NCBI RefSeq assembly: GCF_007860125.1
Contig: NZ_SJPW01000005.1
Span: 246,065 to 310,064 of the forward strand
Direction: 5' to 3'
Source of the DNA: Rubripirellula tenax
Lineage (GTDB): Bacteria > Planctomycetota > Planctomycetia > Pirellulales > Pirellulaceae
Length of the DNA stretch: 64,000 bases
In this document: positions 2,565 through 64,000 of the stretch, piece after piece
How the letters are laid out: every line of letters begins with the position of its first letter
How positions within the stretch are numbered: the stretch's first letter is position 1
The notes under the pieces: generated by a model
The model's input: only the letters and a program-made list of their open reading frames with translations
Database searches by the model: none
What the model was told of the DNA's origin: nothing
Made by a program: the position numbers and the translations under genes

Positions 2565-2921
2565 GCCGCTACGCGCGGGCAGGAAGCGGCGTATGAAACC
2601 ACCTACGTAAACCATGACGAAGGCGGCAATCAATGGCGAGATTTGATTTGGGATCAGCGCATCAACACCGGCGATGACAAGTGGGAACGGAGAGAATGCC
2701 ACAACGTCCCATTTGTCGAAATTGCAAACGCCACGGTAGCGAGCGTAGAAAACGACGGGCAGCATCCCGATCGCAAACCAAACGATGTAGAGCCAGTCAA
2801 TGTTCGGGAAGATGAACTGCTGGACGGCTCCCGCGAAAGCGCACGCAACGACGAAGAGGACGAGACAGATAAGCACGTCCAGTGCGAGTTGCCGAAGTTC
2901 TCGTGCTACGGGAGAGTTCAT
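2559..2921 (-). CDS. Cassette 5 gene, small integral membrane protein (120 aa)
   Basis: Four hydrophobic segments: about residues 12-33 (LALDVLICLVLFVVACAFAG), 42-60 (WLYIVWFAIGMLPVVFYA), 76-90 and 94-110. Ends in a basic tail. ATG at 2921; the TAA stop is built from the TAAC of the cassette core site, so gene and attC overlap by design. Function unknown. Confidence 0.82.
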   Translation of the reverse strand: MNSPVARELRQLALDVLICLVLFVVACAFAGAVQQFIFPNIDWLYIVWFAIGMLPVVFYARYRGVCNFDKWDVVAFSPFPLVIAGVDALIPNQISPLIAAFVMVYVGGFIRRFLPARSGG

Positions 2922-2929
2922 CTGCGAGC

Positions 2930-3065
2930 GGATAACGGAAGGTTTTTACGACACCGCCCTGAACGAAGCGGTGGAGTTTGAATCACGAAAGATTGTACCA
3001 ATGCCAGCGCCCGTTGCCTACCAACGAAGGTGTGCCGAAGGCCTAGCGTAAAAACCATGTTATCC
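2930..3065 (-). repeat. attC of cassette 6 (class I)
   Basis: 136 bp; ends GGATAAC / GTTATCC. Confidence 0.93.
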
Positions 3066-3074
3066 GCCACGGAG

Positions 3075-3449
3075 CTACCCACGGCCGTCAACGAAGATGT
3101 CTTCTTCGCCGGTCTGAACAAGCGTGTTGAGGGGTTCGGTCAATTGAATCCGGCAATGAACCTGTTCGTCGGTATCGAGTAGACGGTCAAGCAGGAAATA
3201 AACAATTCGCTCCGCAGCGTCTGGAGTCGAGGCAACCACGACATCTAGCGAGCCGGTGACCATTGGCCAGTCATGAACGTCGCGGAACCAGAGATAACCA
3301 AGGTCAGCGGCCGGTGCGTGATTGTCGAGGCCGGACGTTGGGCCAGCGACATCTGGCGAAATGCGGATGATCGCATCGCGAGACTCGCCGTACAACGTTG
3401 CCAGCAGCGTAACGCCCAAGTCGGATTTGATCGTTACGTTTTTAGGCAT
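3075..3449 (-). CDS. Cassette 6 gene, uncharacterised 124-aa protein
   Basis: Soluble; begins MPKNVTIKSDLGVTLLATLY and has a helix AAERIVYFLLDRLL. No signal peptide, no Cys pairs. ATG at 3449, 19 nt from the cassette edge. Not recognised. Confidence 0.8.
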   Translation of the reverse strand: MPKNVTIKSDLGVTLLATLYGESRDAIIRISPDVAGPTSGLDNHAPAADLGYLWFRDVHDWPMVTGSLDVVVASTPDAAERIVYFLLDRLLDTDEQVHCRIQLTEPLNTLVQTGEEDIFVDGRG

Positions 3450-57522: not shown

Positions 57523-59598
57523 CTAAAACAGATTCCCGACGATGTGCGCTGACTCCACCCCATCGGCGTCCCAATCCGACGCAGATCGGATCGCCGCATC
57601 GATCGATTCGAAACTTGTGGGCAGAACATTGCGGCGGCGGCCGACCTCGTTGATGACCCTCAGTGCGTCCAGGGCTGTAATCGCGGTGTCGCCGCTGACG
57701 TTGTAAAAATACGCTTGGTTGAGCGTTGTTACGGCCCCAGGCTGCAGGTCAAAACCGGGCAGCTCGATGGTGCCGCCAGCCCGGCCGAGCACGTTGATGA
57801 TCAACAACGCATCGAACGCCGTCACCGCCCCGTTGGCGTCCACATCGAAAGCGTCTTGAGGGTTCAAGTACCGCGACGTGACGGTGATCTCGAAGTCCTC
57901 ATCACGAACGTTTCCTGCCACGTCGGTCAATTGCACGACGACAGTTTGTGGGCCGCGAAGCGGTGAACCGGTGACCCAAGTCAATTCGCCCGAGTCGCCG
58001 TCGATCTCGGCACCTTCGACCAAACCAGCCAACGACCAACGCGTTGCCGATTCGTCCGAAGTCAAAACACGTGTGAAAGCTTCACCCGCGAACACATGAA
58101 CCACATCGTTGTCGCGGACAAGCGTCGGCGCGATCCGGTCCAATGTGATCGCCAATTCGGCCGTCGGGTCACTCGATTGGCCGCCACTCGTCGCGCGTGC
58201 CGCCAACGTCACAAGCCCGGTTCGATCGGCGACATCGATCGTCAGTGATACGGTCGCCTCCGTCGCGGTTGCCGATGCCAGCACTTCATCGGTCGCAACG
58301 TCGAACACTTCGACGGTCGTACCGACACTGACGCCATCGACGACCAACAAAAGCGAAGTCGCATTGGTGACGTTGTCATCATCGGCGGAACCCGAATCAC
58401 TGGTCGCGTCGAGCGCTAGCGACCCGACGAACGGCGTGGGTGCAAACGTGATCGTCAAGGACTGGGTATCGAAAGCACCATTTCCGGTTGCGGTTGTGAC
58501 ACCTAACAAGAATTCAATGGAACCAACAAAGTCTGCCGCAGGGATCAATACGAACCTTCCGGTCACCGAATCCAAGCTCGCCTGGCTGTCAAAACTCTCA
58601 CTTACGTACTGGCCTGCGTAAGCGACCGCATCCGACTCTAAGTCGAATGCGCGCAAGTCCAATTCAACCGTCTCGCCGGCCGTTGCGATGATCGGTGAAA
58701 CGAATGGCAATAGATACGGATTCGCGTTGACTTGATCGTCAATTGTGCTGACCGTGAATGTCTGGCTTGTCGCGTTGCCTTCGGCGTCGGTGACAGTCAC
58801 GGTCGCCGTGGTTTCAATGTTCGGCGCGAGCGCCCGCAACATCACCAGCGAGTTTTCGGTGTCACTAAAGATCTCGGCATGGGTGATCACGACATCGCTG
58901 ACCGGGCTCTCGTCGCCGCCGCCGACGATGGGAGTCTCGCTGATCGCCTCGCGCACATCGAACCCTTCGATCAATTGACCAAAGATGGAGTGATTGAAAT
59001 CCAAAAAACGAGGATCGGCTTCCGTCACAAAGAACTGCGAATCGTTGGTGTCGTCGGTGCTTTTTGCGAACGACAAGATACCTTCCCGATTGTGCTGTAA
59101 GTCAGGATGAAACTCATCGTCGAACGCACCCAATCCCGAGCCTTCGTTCGTCGTGCCGGCCGCAATACCGGCTTGAATCACGAAGTCACTGTCGACCCGG
59201 TGGAACAAGACGCCGTCATAGAAACCGGCTTCCGCCAACGCGATAACTCGCCCCGATGCCCGCGGCGCCCGCTGTTCGAACATCTGAAACACCATGGCAC
59301 CGAAATCGGCAACCGATAGCCGCATGGAACGGTTACCGGTGATCACGATCGCTTCGACCAAGTCAGGATCGGCGACCGTGATCATCGTCGTCAGCGGCCC
59401 GCCGTTCTGATCGGCCGCGTCGATCGGCACATGCAGGGGGCTGCCGACCTCGACCGTTTGCGCATCGATGGAAACAAAGGTCGGCGCATCGCCGGCCAGC
59501 AATCGCCGCGATTCAAGCGACTCGATCCGGAGGGCGTTGGAACGCGACGAAATCCGGGAGTGTCGGCGGCGGCTTGGAAGAGTCATAGATTCAGTCAC
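57523..59598 (-). CDS. Secreted cyclophilin-type isomerase with dockerin-like domain (691 aa)
   Basis: The N-terminus has LRIESLESRRLLAGD, the planctomycete LEPR-type sorting motif. Residues about 105-245 are a cyclophilin domain (YDGVLFHRVDSDFVIQAG, GILSFAKSTDDTNDSQFFVT). Three or four beta-sandwich or cadherin-like modules follow (about 250-590). The end holds a dockerin-type pair of calcium loops, FDVDANGAVTAFDALLIINV and NVSGDTAITALDALRVINEV. Likely exported and surface-bound. ATG at 59598 or at 59586. Confidence 0.9.
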   Translation of the reverse strand: MTESMTLPSRRRHSRISSRSNALRIESLESRRLLAGDAPTFVSIDAQTVEVGSPLHVPIDAADQNGGPLTTMITVADPDLVEAIVITGNRSMRLSVADFGAMVFQMFEQRAPRASGRVIALAEAGFYDGVLFHRVDSDFVIQAGIAAGTTNEGSGLGAFDDEFHPDLQHNREGILSFAKSTDDTNDSQFFVTEADPRFLDFNHSIFGQLIEGFDVREAISETPIVGGGDESPVSDVVITHAEIFSDTENSLVMLRALAPNIETTATVTVTDAEGNATSQTFTVSTIDDQVNANPYLLPFVSPIIATAGETVELDLRAFDLESDAVAYAGQYVSESFDSQASLDSVTGRFVLIPAADFVGSIEFLLGVTTATGNGAFDTQSLTITFAPTPFVGSLALDATSDSGSADDDNVTNATSLLLVVDGVSVGTTVEVFDVATDEVLASATATEATVSLTIDVADRTGLVTLAARATSGGQSSDPTAELAITLDRIAPTLVRDNDVVHVFAGEAFTRVLTSDESATRWSLAGLVEGAEIDGDSGELTWVTGSPLRGPQTVVVQLTDVAGNVRDEDFEITVTSRYLNPQDAFDVDANGAVTAFDALLIINVLGRAGGTIELPGFDLQPGAVTTLNQAYFYNVSGDTAITALDALRVINEVGRRRNVLPTSFESIDAAIRSASDWDADGVESAHIVGNLF

Positions 59599-60469: not shown

Positions 60470-60589
60470 GGCGTGGCTACCGAAACGGGATCGTTGGACC
60501 AAAATCGAGGACCGAGTGACGTTAAATTTAGGGTTTTTGGGTTCGTTTGACACGCTGGCACCCCGTCGATAAACTCGCGACAACGATGC

Positions 60590-60810
60590 ACGGTGACGCT
60601 CGGCGGATTGCTCCGATCGAGCGTACACAGGGAACTTCGGTGAAATTCCGAGACGGCCCGGCCGCTGTAACTGATGTGGATGAGTTGTTCGATTTGAACA
60701 GTTGGCCCACCACCCCTTCATTCTGTTTGCCATTGGGAGACTCGAAAGAGCCCCCTCCCGAGAAGGCTGAAATGGGTGGGAACGTCAGGAGTCAGAAGAC
60801 CTACCGCGTT
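60590..60810 (+). promoter_or_regulatory. Cobalamin riboswitch
   Basis: Conserved blocks in order: AGGGAACTTCGGTGAAATTCC (60629-60649), then GACGGCC and GCTGTAAC, CCATTGGG (about 60730), CCCGAGAAGGCTGAAATG, and GGAGTCAGAAGACCTACC. They match the B12 riboswitch (RF00174), including the B12 box (GCTGTAAC is a variant of CUGUAA). CGGT near 60590 and ACCG near 60803 close P1. A GACACG/CGTGTC hairpin (60815-60849) follows. It precedes the pseudopilin-like gene by about 160 nt. Confidence 0.9.
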
Positions 60811-60972
60811 ATCGGACACGAAGTGACCTTCTTGGGTGAGGTCCGTGTCGAGAGCTGAGTTGACACGATGCCAACGCGCGGAATCCGAAATTCCGTTCGA
60901 GCTTGCGTTCGTTCGTTAAAATCCGTTGCGACGCCAATCGGCGCACGTATTGGAAAACACCGAGTCGATCCA

Positions 60973-61806
60973 ATGACCGCTTCCCCAACACGACGTAATG
61001 CGGATGCCTGCGCGTCCGTCATTCGAGCTCGAAAAGCGTTTACGTTGGTCGAGTTGTTGGTGGTGATTGCGATCGTTGGCGTTCTAGTCGGATTGCTGTT
61101 GCCGGCCGTGCAATTCGCGAGAGAGGCGGCTCGGCAGACGACTTGCCGAAATCACTTGAAGCAAATCGGTCTTGCGATACACGCCTACCACGGCACCCAC
61201 CGGGCACTGCCGGTTGGCTGCGTTGATTCGCGAGTGGTGAGTCGTTCGCTGCGTTCGAAGAACTATGCCTGGTCGGCGCTGCTGCTGCCGTTCATCGAAC
61301 AACAGCCACTGCACGAGTCCATCGATTTCGGTATCCCCTTCGATCACGCAAACAATGCCGACGCAGCATCGAAACAGCTAGCCATTTACCTTTGCCCGAC
61401 CGTCACGCCTCAATACTCCGTTCGTGGTCCGACGCACTATGGCGGGCTGTATGGCGAAACCTTGGTCGATCCGGCCAATGATGACGGCTTGTTTCTTTAC
61501 AACCGACGCTTGGCGTTCCGCGATTGCGGCGATGGACTCAGTCATACCATGGCGGTCAGCGAGGACGTGATCGGCCCCCATGGCGAGTGGATCAACGGCA
61601 ACAACATTTTTGTCCAATCGCACGGAATCAACGACGAAACGGCCTGGATATTCGACAACGAAATTCGATCACTTCATCCCGCCGGCGCGATGGCGCTGTT
61701 CATCGATGGGTCGGTCCACATCGTGAACGAATCGCTCGATCGCAAATTGCTTGGTGCGATGATCACGCGAAATGGCCACGAAGTATTGGAACAAGGCGAT
61801 CTGTAA
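60973..61806 (+). CDS. DUF1559 pseudopilin-like protein (277 aa)
   Basis: Type IV pilin-like N-terminus: ARKAFTLVELLVVIAIVGVL with F-T-L-V-E-L prepilin cleavage site, then LLLPAVQFAREAARQTTCRN and HLKQIGLAIHAYHGTHRALP, the DUF1559 signature. H-x-G/D-G-S-V segment near the end (MALFIDGSVHIVNESLD) is typical too. ATG at 60973 leaves a short leader; an earlier ATG at 60868 is possible. First gene downstream of the cobalamin riboswitch, hence probably B12-repressed. Confidence 0.9.
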   Translation: MTASPTRRNADACASVIRARKAFTLVELLVVIAIVGVLVGLLLPAVQFAREAARQTTCRNHLKQIGLAIHAYHGTHRALPVGCVDSRVVSRSLRSKNYAWSALLLPFIEQQPLHESIDFGIPFDHANNADAASKQLAIYLCPTVTPQYSVRGPTHYGGLYGETLVDPANDDGLFLYNRRLAFRDCGDGLSHTMAVSEDVIGPHGEWINGNNIFVQSHGINDETAWIFDNEIRSLHPAGAMALFIDGSVHIVNESLDRKLLGAMITRNGHEVLEQGDL

Positions 61807-61873
61807 CGAACGTGATTTTTGAAACAACTTGAATACAACCTAACTTGAACTCAACCCCACTTTGACGAACACC

Positions 61874-62782
61874 ATGAAGACACGACTCAATCCGGTTTCT
61901 AAGCTACTCCTCGCCCTGGCGTGCGTTTCACCAGCGGCTGCAAGTGCCGCAACCCTCGTCGACTTTGAATCACTGCCGATCGCGTTCGACGCCAACAACG
62001 TCAACGTCGGCCCCTTTGTGGATAATGTTTCTATCCAGCCGGGGATCTTCGGTGGCAACGACATCAGCAGCACGTTCAGCGCTGGTGGCGTCGCATTCAA
62101 CAACACCTTCAACGACGCCTTCGCATCGTTTCAAGGCTTCGCACTGTCACAGCGGGGCTTGAGTCAGTGGTCGAGCGGCAGCTTTGCCGAGTTCTTCAAT
62201 GGCAACGATACGGTCAGCGCGAACGGCATTGGCAATTTCGCGTCGAGTCGCTGGGTCGTTGCGTTCGGCGACTACTCGGGGCCCGACGATCCGCTTGCCA
62301 ACATCGCGTCGATCATGGAAGCACCCGCAAACTCGGTCTTCGATTCTCTTTATGTGAACAACACCCGGACGACCACTCACGTGTTGACGACCGGGAACTC
62401 GAGTGCCCGCGCTTTTGGAAGCATCAACCAGGACGAGAAATTCACGGCACGATTCATTGACCTGTCGCCGGGCTCGAACGGGTCGAACTTTGTGGAGGTC
62501 GAGCTCGCAAGTTTTGTGAATGCCACCAGCACGCTTTCGATCGTCGACGATTGGATGCGAGTGGACTTGAGCGGATTGGGTGGCGCCACCCGAATTGGTA
62601 TCGACTTCACATCGACCGACGAGGGTGCGTTCGGACTCAACACCCCCGCCTACGTCGCCGTAGACAACATATTGGTTGTGTCGGTTCCCGAACCTTCGAC
62701 ATGGTTGATGCTAGCCATGGGATGCGGAATGCTGGGATGGCGAATCAAACGTCGCCAAGAGAATCTGACAAAGTTGGTCTAG
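61874..62782 (+). CDS. DUF4465-like PEP-CTERM protein (302 aa)
   Basis: Signal peptide MKTRLNPVSKLLLALACVSP. The core has the DUF4465 layout: FSAGGVAFNNTFNDAFASFQ-GFALS, FDSLYVNNTRTTTHVLTTG, FVEVELASF, VDDWMRVDLSGLGGATRIGI and GAFGLNTPAYVAVDNI. The end is a PEP-CTERM sorting signal: VPEPSTW, hydrophobic helix, RIKRR. ATG at 61874 (a TTG four codons earlier rejected). 67 nt after the DUF1559 gene, so probably co-transcribed under the riboswitch. Surface location inferred. Confidence 0.88.
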   Translation: MKTRLNPVSKLLLALACVSPAAASAATLVDFESLPIAFDANNVNVGPFVDNVSIQPGIFGGNDISSTFSAGGVAFNNTFNDAFASFQGFALSQRGLSQWSSGSFAEFFNGNDTVSANGIGNFASSRWVVAFGDYSGPDDPLANIASIMEAPANSVFDSLYVNNTRTTTHVLTTGNSSARAFGSINQDEKFTARFIDLSPGSNGSNFVEVELASFVNATSTLSIVDDWMRVDLSGLGGATRIGIDFTSTDEGAFGLNTPAYVAVDNILVVSVPEPSTWLMLAMGCGMLGWRIKRRQENLTKLV

Positions 62783-62869: not shown

Positions 62870-64000
62870 ATGCCAACCGAATCCGCATTGCCACCGGGGA
62901 TGGAAAACATCTTCGCCGGCGCCCTGGTGATTTACCTTGTCGTCTTGTACGTCATCGGTTTTATCGCCCAGCGGCGCGTCAAGAACGTCGAAGACTTTGT
63001 CCTTGCCGGACGCCGGCTACCGACGTCGTTGGCAACCATCACGATCATCGCGACGTGGTTCGGCGCCGAGTCGTTGATGACGACGGCGGACGAAGTCGGC
63101 AACGAAGGGCTACGCAAAGCGATGCTTGATCCGATCGGGATCGCGCTATGTTTGTTTTTGGCGGGCCTGTTTGTGGCTGGCCCGATGTGGCGGATGGGTA
63201 TCTTGACGGTTCCCGATTTCTTTGGTCGCCGCTACGGCAAAACGGCCGAGGTCCTTTCGTCGCTGATCATCGTGCCCAGCTACTTTGGTTGGGTTGCGGC
63301 CCAGTTTGTGGCGCTGGCCCAATTGCTGGACGTATTCTTTGGCGTGCCCAAGGAATGGGGCATCATGGCGGTGGCGACGTTGGGAACCGGCTACACGCTG
63401 TTGGGCGGAATGTGGACGATCACGTGGACGGATGCGATCCAAATGAGTTTCATTTTGCTCGGCCTGATCTTGCTCGGCCATGCGATTTTGGTGCAACTGG
63501 GCGATGGCAGCATCTCGGCGGGCCTAACAGCCATGCAAAACGATATTCCGGCCGAGCGTTGGCGGATCGCCGACCCACCGACGTTCTGGCGAGACACGCT
63601 GACGGCGATCAGCGCGTTGGCGATCGGCGCGCTTGGCAACCTTCCGATGCAAGACTTGATGCAGCGGATCTTCTCGGCCAAAAGCGACCGTGTCGCCTCG
63701 CGAGCCTGCTTGTGGGCGTCCGCCGGTTACATACTGATGGGCATCCTGCCGGTGGGTGCTGGCATGGCGGCGCATTTACTGCTGCCGCAACAGGAAGGCG
63801 ACATGGACGGCGTCGTTTTGTTGATCGCAGGGAAACTGCTCAACCCGATGCTGTTGTTGGTGTTCTTCTTGGCGATCGTTTCGGCGGTCTTGTCAACGAT
63901 CGTCAGCGCGGTGATGGCACCGGCTGCGGTCATGGCCCACAACTTGGTGGAACCTGTGTGGCGCCGGTCGCAAACGATTCCGCCGTCCCAAGAAGGACTG
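62870..64000 (+). CDS. Sodium:solute symporter, SSS family (C-terminus cut by window end)
   Basis: ATG at 62870; open for 377 codons to the window end. Begins MPTESALPPGMENIFAGALV and has many hydrophobic helices. VEDFVLAGRRLPTSLA and ATWFGAESLMTTADEVGNEG are the SSS signature region of helices 1-2; GGMWTITWTDAIQM and LSTIVSAVMAP are further family blocks. 87 nt after the PEP-CTERM gene and co-directional. Substrate not deducible. Confidence 0.9.
   Translation, partial: MPTESALPPGMENIFAGALVIYLVVLYVIGFIAQRRVKNVEDFVLAGRRLPTSLATITIIATWFGAESLMTTADEVGNEGLRKAMLDPIGIALCLFLAGLFVAGPMWRMGILTVPDFFGRRYGKTAEVLSSLIIVPSYFGWVAAQFVALAQLLDVFFGVPKEWGIMAVATLGTGYTLLGGMWTITWTDAIQMSFILLGLILLGHAILVQLGDGSISAGLTAMQNDIPAERWRIADPPTFWRDTLTAISALAIGALGNLPMQDLMQRIFSAKSDRVASRACLWASAGYILMGILPVGAGMAAHLLLPQQEGDMDGVVLLIAGKLLNPMLLLVFFLAIVSAVLSTIVSAVMAPAAVMAHNLVEPVWRRSQTIPPSQEGL

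Follow-up and report, generated by a model that had tools for sequence, protein, structure and literature searches.

A riboswitch-controlled operon of a pilin-like protein and a member of a B12-binding family as a probable surface acquisition system for vitamin B12 in Rubripirellula tenax

In this work, we analysed a stretch of 64,000 nucleotides from the planctomycete Rubripirellula tenax (contig NZ_SJPW01000005.1, positions 246,065 to 310,064; hereafter the window), and specifically a locus in which a cobalamin (vitamin B12) riboswitch of the RF00174 family precedes a gene for a DUF1559 type IV pilin-like protein and a gene for a DUF4465 protein carrying a PEP-CTERM sorting signal. We read this locus as an operon that is repressed by B12 and serves a Rubripirellula-like planctomycete to acquire the vitamin at its surface, standing in for the receptor BtuB, and give this reading a probability of roughly 0.7. 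The sole recognised B12 riboswitch of a genome that has MetH as the only methionine synthase type found and no TonB plug match stands before the genes for a pilin and a protein of a B12-binding family. The locus bears on two questions at once, namely the route of B12 uptake in planctomycetes that lack BtuB and the role of a DUF1559 protein, of which there are dozens per genome, and it hints at an undescribed route of B12 into the cell.

The riboswitch, which the original prediction had recognised from the letters alone, was confirmed by a covariance search with a score about twice the gathering threshold (Table 1). It begins 15 bases 5' of the interval first singled out and otherwise lies inside it; it is the only element of the window to reach an Rfam gathering threshold and the sole RF00174 match of the genome, the whole assembly having been searched (8.0 Mb, 42 contigs, 99.91% complete). 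The order of the first genes, DUF1559 and then DUF4465-PEP-CTERM, was equally borne out by Pfam matches that all exceed their cut-offs.

DUF4465, encoded by the second gene, has been reported in 2025-2026 as a B12-binding domain, with binding demonstrated for eight members, one of them from a planctomycete (PMC12751083, PMC13398666). The demonstrated binders include BtuJ1 and BtuJ2 of Bacteroides thetaiotaomicron (PMC12751083) and 'Pan' (A0A518BTS0) of Mucisphaera calidilacus, a planctomycete of a different class of the phylum (PMC13398666), in agreement with the tie to Bacteroides B12 loci that had been drawn in the original prediction. The window protein shares with BtuJ1, BtuJ2 and the family (IPR027828, PF14717) the Pfam domain, the predicted fold, the HI-loop motif NTPAY and the riboswitch control. 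Its model has a predicted local distance difference test (pLDDT) score of 87.7 and shows the augmented jellyroll fold; the nine best Foldseek matches in the PDB are all DUF4465 chains, the first being the B12 complex 9hmu (E 1.1e-14, 20% identity) and the fifth 9qpm, BtuJ1 with cyanocobalamin (E 4.2e-12). The HI-loop tyrosine, Y245 in BtuJ1 and reported to be conserved in 97% of homologs (PMC13398666), is retained as Tyr260; among the 41 single-domain DUF4465 proteins of the loci described below it is present in 38 and replaced by phenylalanine in three. The differences from BtuJ1 and BtuJ2 are that the window protein is a PEP-CTERM protein and not a lipoprotein, that a DE-loop tyrosine has become a threonine, and that the locus has a pilin partner and neither BtuB nor BtuG as a neighbour. 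We take IPR013424 to be the PEP-CTERM signature. It has been recorded on 88 of 824 DUF4465 family members (PMC12751083).

The trio is not peculiar to the window. We used a family sample of 149 genomes and a phylum-wide sample of 392 genomes, and found DUF4465 in 59 of the former and in 11 of the latter, the window genome being one of these 11. From 54 of the 59 carriers in the family we fetched 59 DUF4465 loci (L numbers; genomes are given G numbers), counted by PF14717 coordinates with strand and order checked. In 58 of them a same-strand RF00174 match precedes the DUF4465 domain by 287-2889 bases, L111 being the exception. Of the five carriers outside this set (G050, G084, G108, G118 and G144), three have, by coordinates, the riboswitch shortly before DUF4465 with contig and strand in common, and two have it on a different contig. 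A DUF1559 frame accompanies 49 of the 58 riboswitch-DUF4465 loci. It stands ahead of DUF4465 at the operon front in 43 of these (within 700 bases of the aptamer in 42), between another PEP-CTERM gene and DUF4465 in three (L092, L093, L106), and 3' of the DUF4465 gene in three (L080, L084, L090). G098 and G059 have DUF4465 and the pilin each behind a separate riboswitch.

Named database records, of which 17 of 80 loci were tested (10 planctomycete, 7 from other phyla), gave a similar picture, although they partly represent the same genomes and are not independent of the family counts. The planctomycete loci had a riboswitch in 8/10 and a DUF1559 match in 7/10. The trio was found in Rhodopirellula rubra, with the pilin about 1 kb past the aptamer, in Stieleria tagensis, Roseiconus nitratireducens, Roseimaritima sediminicola, a Mariniblastus metagenome-assembled genome (MAG) and Zavarzinella formosa (presumably of another family), and in a Phycisphaerae MAG (L258) in which the pilin follows the DUF4465 match. 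R. europaea (L255) had the riboswitch and DUF4465 with no pilin match; in Neorhodopirellula pilleata (L278) and R. sallentina (L301) the fetched stretch contained neither riboswitch nor pilin, and both are present in L105, a longer stretch that apparently covers the R. sallentina locus. Outside the planctomycetes, five of the seven fetched stretches had a riboswitch and none a DUF1559 match. The combination of riboswitch and DUF4465 is thus widespread, and the pilin looks like a planctomycete addition. The recurrence in other planctomycetes, which the original prediction proposed to look for, is there in the family loci and in the named records alike.

The pairing of riboswitch and pilin extends beyond DUF4465. 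We examined 70 other riboswitch loci of the family, none beside a listed DUF4465 or TonB plug match, two of which (L197, L206) stop less than 250 bases past the riboswitch and could not be judged. In 41 of the 70, the first gene is a DUF1559 frame, defined as a frame that resembles the window pilin (phmmer E ≤1e-3) and starts within 700 bases of the aptamer. The window genome has 67 DUF1559 matches, which with an assumed gene number puts the chance background near 1% of genes. Given 41/70 against that background, the pairing is no accident, although the loci are not mutually independent. A tree built from 133 pilin-like proteins unites 61 riboswitch-linked members in a single clade (97% by the Shimodaira-Hasegawa-like approximate likelihood ratio test, SH-aLRT). 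This clade takes in 47 of the 48 pilins from DUF4465 loci, and all 45 of the window genome's other DUF1559 proteins in the tree fall outside it; two more groups of 16 and 10 rows, all riboswitch-linked, lie outside it. Placement of the CobQ-linked group of 10 depended on the sampling: in a first tree with 28 paralogs it fell inside a 71-row riboswitch clade (97%), and in the second, with more paralogs, outside the clade, with two paralogs joining between. Both trees were quick ones without bootstrap, in which the DUF1559 proteins from beyond the window genome are riboswitch-linked ones; L073 and L179 (motif not matched by the pattern) and the paralogs L152, L155, L320, L321 and L333 were omitted. 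For the second tree, 50 of the 67 PF07596 matches of the genome were fetched, giving 45 proteins, the other 17 being weaker matches and two pieces of the window pilin itself. By this tree, the 61 riboswitch-linked pilins are a dedicated clade, exclusive with respect to the window genome's own paralogs.

The window pilin shares with type II pseudopilins and type IV pilins (GspG-like) the N-methylation motif (27.8 bits in the Pfam scan, cut-off 21.2) and the long N-terminal helix; its model consists of this single helix and a globular head (pLDDT 90.6). It differs from them in that the head has no confident PDB match, Foldseek returning none at E ≤0.001 and ranking nothing but pilins first (best E 0.25, over 83 alignment columns), so that a known fold for the head was rejected, and in that the stretch from riboswitch to DUF4465 contains no pilus assembly gene. 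Its start is either ATG 60973, which gives the usual short prepilin leader, or ATG 60868, which gives the longest frame (312 aa).

B12 exceeds the size admitted by ordinary porins, and the textbook route into Gram-negative bacteria is the TonB-dependent receptor BtuB. The window genome has MetH (Met_synt_B12, 390.8 bits) and no match to MetE, and the TonB Plug domain had no match in the whole genome (3 of 14 control genomes were positive). A TonB-dependent BtuB encoded with the binder, which characterises the Bacteroides-type BtuB/BtuG locus, was accordingly not found. Of the six genomes of the genus, G131 has two plug matches and the other five have none (this and all further counts of TonB plugs and of riboswitches beside them, over the 149 genomes, are among the matches listed). 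De novo B12 synthesis looks absent, because the match to GATase_3 (PF07685), the one marker family for CobQ/CobB used here, is weak (E 2.8e-5, compared with values of 3.8e-57 to 2.4e-50 for the best twelve relatives). A BtuC permease was looked for and rejected, as both FecCD matches of the genome score far more strongly as ABC-3 family. DUF6580, a membrane protein with one copy in the window genome (L304, on another contig than the sole riboswitch), is a candidate inner-membrane B12 carrier since it stands behind a cobalamin riboswitch in three relatives (L211, L213, L176).

The operon could then work as follows. Scarcity of cobalamin would lead the riboswitch to permit expression, as the mode of action of RF00174 implies. 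The DUF4465 protein would be exported, processed by the PEP-CTERM system and probably retained at the outer membrane or outside it. There it would capture cobamides in its predicted BtuJ-like jellyroll pocket, binding being demonstrated for relatives only. The DUF1559 protein would be a dedicated, co-made pilin-like subunit. As part of a pilin structure spanning the envelope, it would display the binder or assist the passage of the ligand, a job for which the genome shows no TonB-dependent receptor match. The captured vitamin would serve at least MetH, the sole methionine synthase type found. That the pilin itself moves B12 across the outer membrane is the doubtful part of this scheme. About as doubtful is the generalisation that many Pirellulaceae have a TonB-receptor-free uptake of B12 in which the riboswitch-controlled DUF1559 clade would form or decorate an envelope-spanning fibre that passes cobamides through the outer membrane from exchangeable surface binders, these being DUF4465, triple-DUF4465 giants or other PEP-CTERM proteins. 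If true, such a fibre would be the first molecular role for a DUF1559 protein. Labelled dextran has been reported to bind pili-like fibres on the crateriform structures of Planctopirus and Gemmata (PMC5394234), which sets a precedent in the phylum for a fibre carrying ligands inward. DUF1559 was also earlier named a solute-binding family (PMC2754498), and two of the 68 DUF1559 paralogs of Planctopirus limnophila are essential (PMC10632474). None of these three reports, as available, demonstrates B12 transport.

Several observations weigh against an acquisition operon in place of BtuB. No expression platform was recognised; a transcription terminator was rejected as one, there being no terminator-like site on the + strand between the aptamer and the pilin gene. 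We know of no DUF1559 protein with a transport role, and this in a genome with dozens of them. Nine of the 58 riboswitch-DUF4465 loci have no nearby pilin, and the pilin of L084, counted among the 49, lies 2.5 kb downstream on a very long branch outside the clade and may not belong. The window protein is a weak member of its family (85.5 bits in the family-wide search, against 207.6 for the best relatives), and at the place of BtuJ1 Tyr146, in the DE loop, it has Thr166. The tyrosine of the BtuJ1 motif NTTY is identified as Y146 because it lies 99 residues before the HI-loop Y245 in the aligned chain 9qpm; it is common to three solved B12 complexes, as a contact residue and not a family-defining one, and is present in 37 of the 41 single-domain proteins, its place being taken by leucine in L087 and by threonine in the other three, namely the window protein, L116 and L117. 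Position 168 also has threonine, where BtuJ1, BtuJ2 and 9hmu have tyrosine, as do just 9 of the 41. Cobamide binding by the window protein is likely by family and not secure, since the DE-loop tyrosine is replaced.

The distribution of TonB receptors speaks partly for and partly against the acquisition reading. Riboswitch-controlled TonB receptor genes, whose btuB-like identity is taken from the Plug domain and the riboswitch, occur in 34 of the 149 genomes; as in the window, the same riboswitch family stands before a gene for B12 at the surface, but theirs is a TonB-dependent receptor, whereas the window genome has no Plug match. DUF4465 and such a plug occur together in 2 of the 149 genomes, DUF4465 alone in 57, the plug alone in 32 and neither in 58 (Fisher p 1.8e-6). 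This exclusivity ignores kinship, and when tallied by hand over genera (both 3, single 22 and 16, neither 27) the p-value becomes 0.03. Furthermore, any TonB plug is found in 31/59 genomes with DUF4465 and 55/90 others (p 0.31), that is, TonB receptors are not generally missing where DUF4465 is present.

Among the alternatives, the one with the best, if less than even, prospects is capture without transport, in which DUF4465 would concentrate B12 at the surface, in the matrix or on vesicles, like BtuJ in Bacteroides, the vitamin would enter by a general route such as a large porin, and the pilin would be an anchor or export partner of the PEP-CTERM protein with no part in uptake. The activity of BtuJ proteins on extracellular vesicles (PMC12751083), the loci without a pilin and the several clade pilins that adjoin other PEP-CTERM proteins are all in its favour; on the other hand, some riboswitch-linked pilins are followed immediately by CobQ-like genes, without an intervening PEP-CTERM gene, and the five riboswitch-DUF4465 loci of other phyla do without a DUF1559 match in the fetched stretch. 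Pilins often function in attachment. It is also conceivable, but improbable, that low B12 induces pilin and surface protein for adhesion to B12 producers or algae, the window DUF4465 no longer binding the vitamin. That the window protein has lost the DE-loop tyrosine, as have L116 and L117, which stand close to it in the alignment, would fit such a change, but the HI-loop NTPAY and the entire fold are retained, and across the family DUF4465 genes track the riboswitch while most keep the DE tyrosine. Finally, with so many DUF1559 genes in the genome, a relic riboswitch or one that merely neighbours ordinary DUF1559 and PEP-CTERM genes by chance might be considered; the recurrence of the arrangement in many genera and the separate pilin clade led us to reject this as extremely improbable. 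A B12-repressed acquisition operon remains the reading we prefer.

As to novelty, the original prediction of an undescribed B12-capture module holds in part. B12 binding by DUF4465 is in print, a planctomycete member included, and the DUF4465 part of the locus is a new member of an already described B12-binding family with one contact residue changed. What looks new among B12 acquisition loci is the recurrent riboswitch-pilin pairing, the more unusual side of the locus and one that the original prediction did not weigh, and the operon of riboswitch, pilin and binder, present here in a genome with no match to the TonB plug. The open-access literature, to which our search was confined, yielded nothing joining planctomycetes and a cobalamin riboswitch, planctomycetes, PEP-CTERM and B12, or DUF1559 and a riboswitch, whereas it does contain papers that name planctomycetes together with vitamin B12 and a riboswitch or with BtuB and cobalamin, and one, apparently on Klebsiella, that names a cobalamin riboswitch and a pseudopilin; the words planctomycet, PEP-CTERM, DUF1559 and pseudopilin are absent from the main text of PMC13398666.

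Table 1. Features of the riboswitch-pilin-DUF4465 locus, in positions of the window
Feature	Position	Strand	Basis
Sigma-70-like promoter candidate, TTGACA-17-TAAACT	60547..60575	+	10/12; directly before aptamer
Cobalamin riboswitch aptamer RF00174, full length 1-189	60575..60822	+	64.1 bits, gathering threshold 31.5, E 1.6e-13
DUF1559 (PF07596) type IV pilin-like protein, 277 aa	60973..61806	+	Pfam 168.6 bits, cut-off 23.3
Prepilin N-terminal methylation motif PF07963, residues 18-43 of 277-aa form	61024..61101	+	28.0 bits
DUF4465 PEP-CTERM protein, 302 aa, predicted BtuJ-like fold	61874..62782	+	PF14717 and PEP-CTERM matches, model
DUF4465 domain PF14717, residues 83-266	62120..62671	+	84.1 bits, cut-off 25
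HI-loop motif NTPAY, residues 256-260, Tyr260	62639..62653	+	conserved family motif in PMC13398666
PEP-CTERM sorting signal PF07589, residues 270-294, C-terminal	62681..62755	+	28.8 bits, cut-off 20.7

Regarding the promoter candidate, one such site was found against 0.9 expected in shuffled sequence, so that it is weak by itself and only its position favours a promoter. Single-strand folding of 60575-61000 gave an uninformative z of -1.47. A sodium:solute symporter gene begins at 62870 on the same strand, 87 bases past the DUF4465 gene, and was not counted among the operon parts; a kdsB-like gene lies upstream of the riboswitch on the opposite strand.

DUF4465 also occurs in giant proteins of about 1500-2000 residues, found in 17 of the 58 loci (in L063 in two pieces owing to a stretch of undetermined sequence). 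The giants stand behind the same riboswitch and pilin, for example at L102:4857-10973 and L066:7054-13113, with 15 further loci; each of the two that were scanned combines three DUF4465 domains with one dockerin domain and a weak planctomycete extracellular signal. The first PEP-CTERM genes of L092, L093 and L106 were considered as DUF4465 genes and rejected: the whole-protein profile matched their C-terminal ends only and no PF14717 match is listed, and in L106 PEP-CTERM is the only Pfam domain above cut-off.

Behind the pilins of the other riboswitch loci, the next genes are CobQ-like genes (GATase_3 matches), small lipoprotein-like frames or PEP-CTERM proteins, the latter, where scanned, having no additional Pfam domain above cut-off except in L205. 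Riboswitch, DUF1559 pilin and CobQ-like gene follow one another in L171, L180, L190, L191, L192, L195, L196 and L219, mostly with a frame read by eye as cobalamin adenosyltransferase behind them, so that these pilins head B12 synthesis operons too. A second riboswitch-pilin group (L200, L220, L221, L222) continues with a small lipoprotein-like frame, followed in L222 by a periplasmic binding protein (PF01497, 70.7 bits). G142, of the same genus and without DUF4465, has a riboswitch, a pilin and another PEP-CTERM protein (L067). PEP-CTERM proteins without other Pfam domains lie behind riboswitch and pilin at L067:5494-6234 and L189:1817-2545 and 2596-3417, and before the pilin at L106:6263-7150; they are possibly further families of B12 binders. 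In others of the 70 loci, visual inspection suggested genes for ribonucleotide reductase or MetE, and Pfam identified DUF6580.

Some domain arrangements were met along the way. At L106:5130-6260 (-), a riboswitch-linked DUF1559 protein has DUF1289 fused ahead of its prepilin motif, a place normally taken by a short leader, and in another genome a stand-alone DUF1289 frame lies behind a riboswitch at L176:5075-5353 (-). In the window genome, L127:1438-2514 (-) joins a helix-turn-helix to two B12-binding domains, which we take to be the make-up of a CarH-type light sensor. In the window, a single protein at 57523-59598 (-) carries cyclophilin, bacterial Ig-like and dockerin domains.

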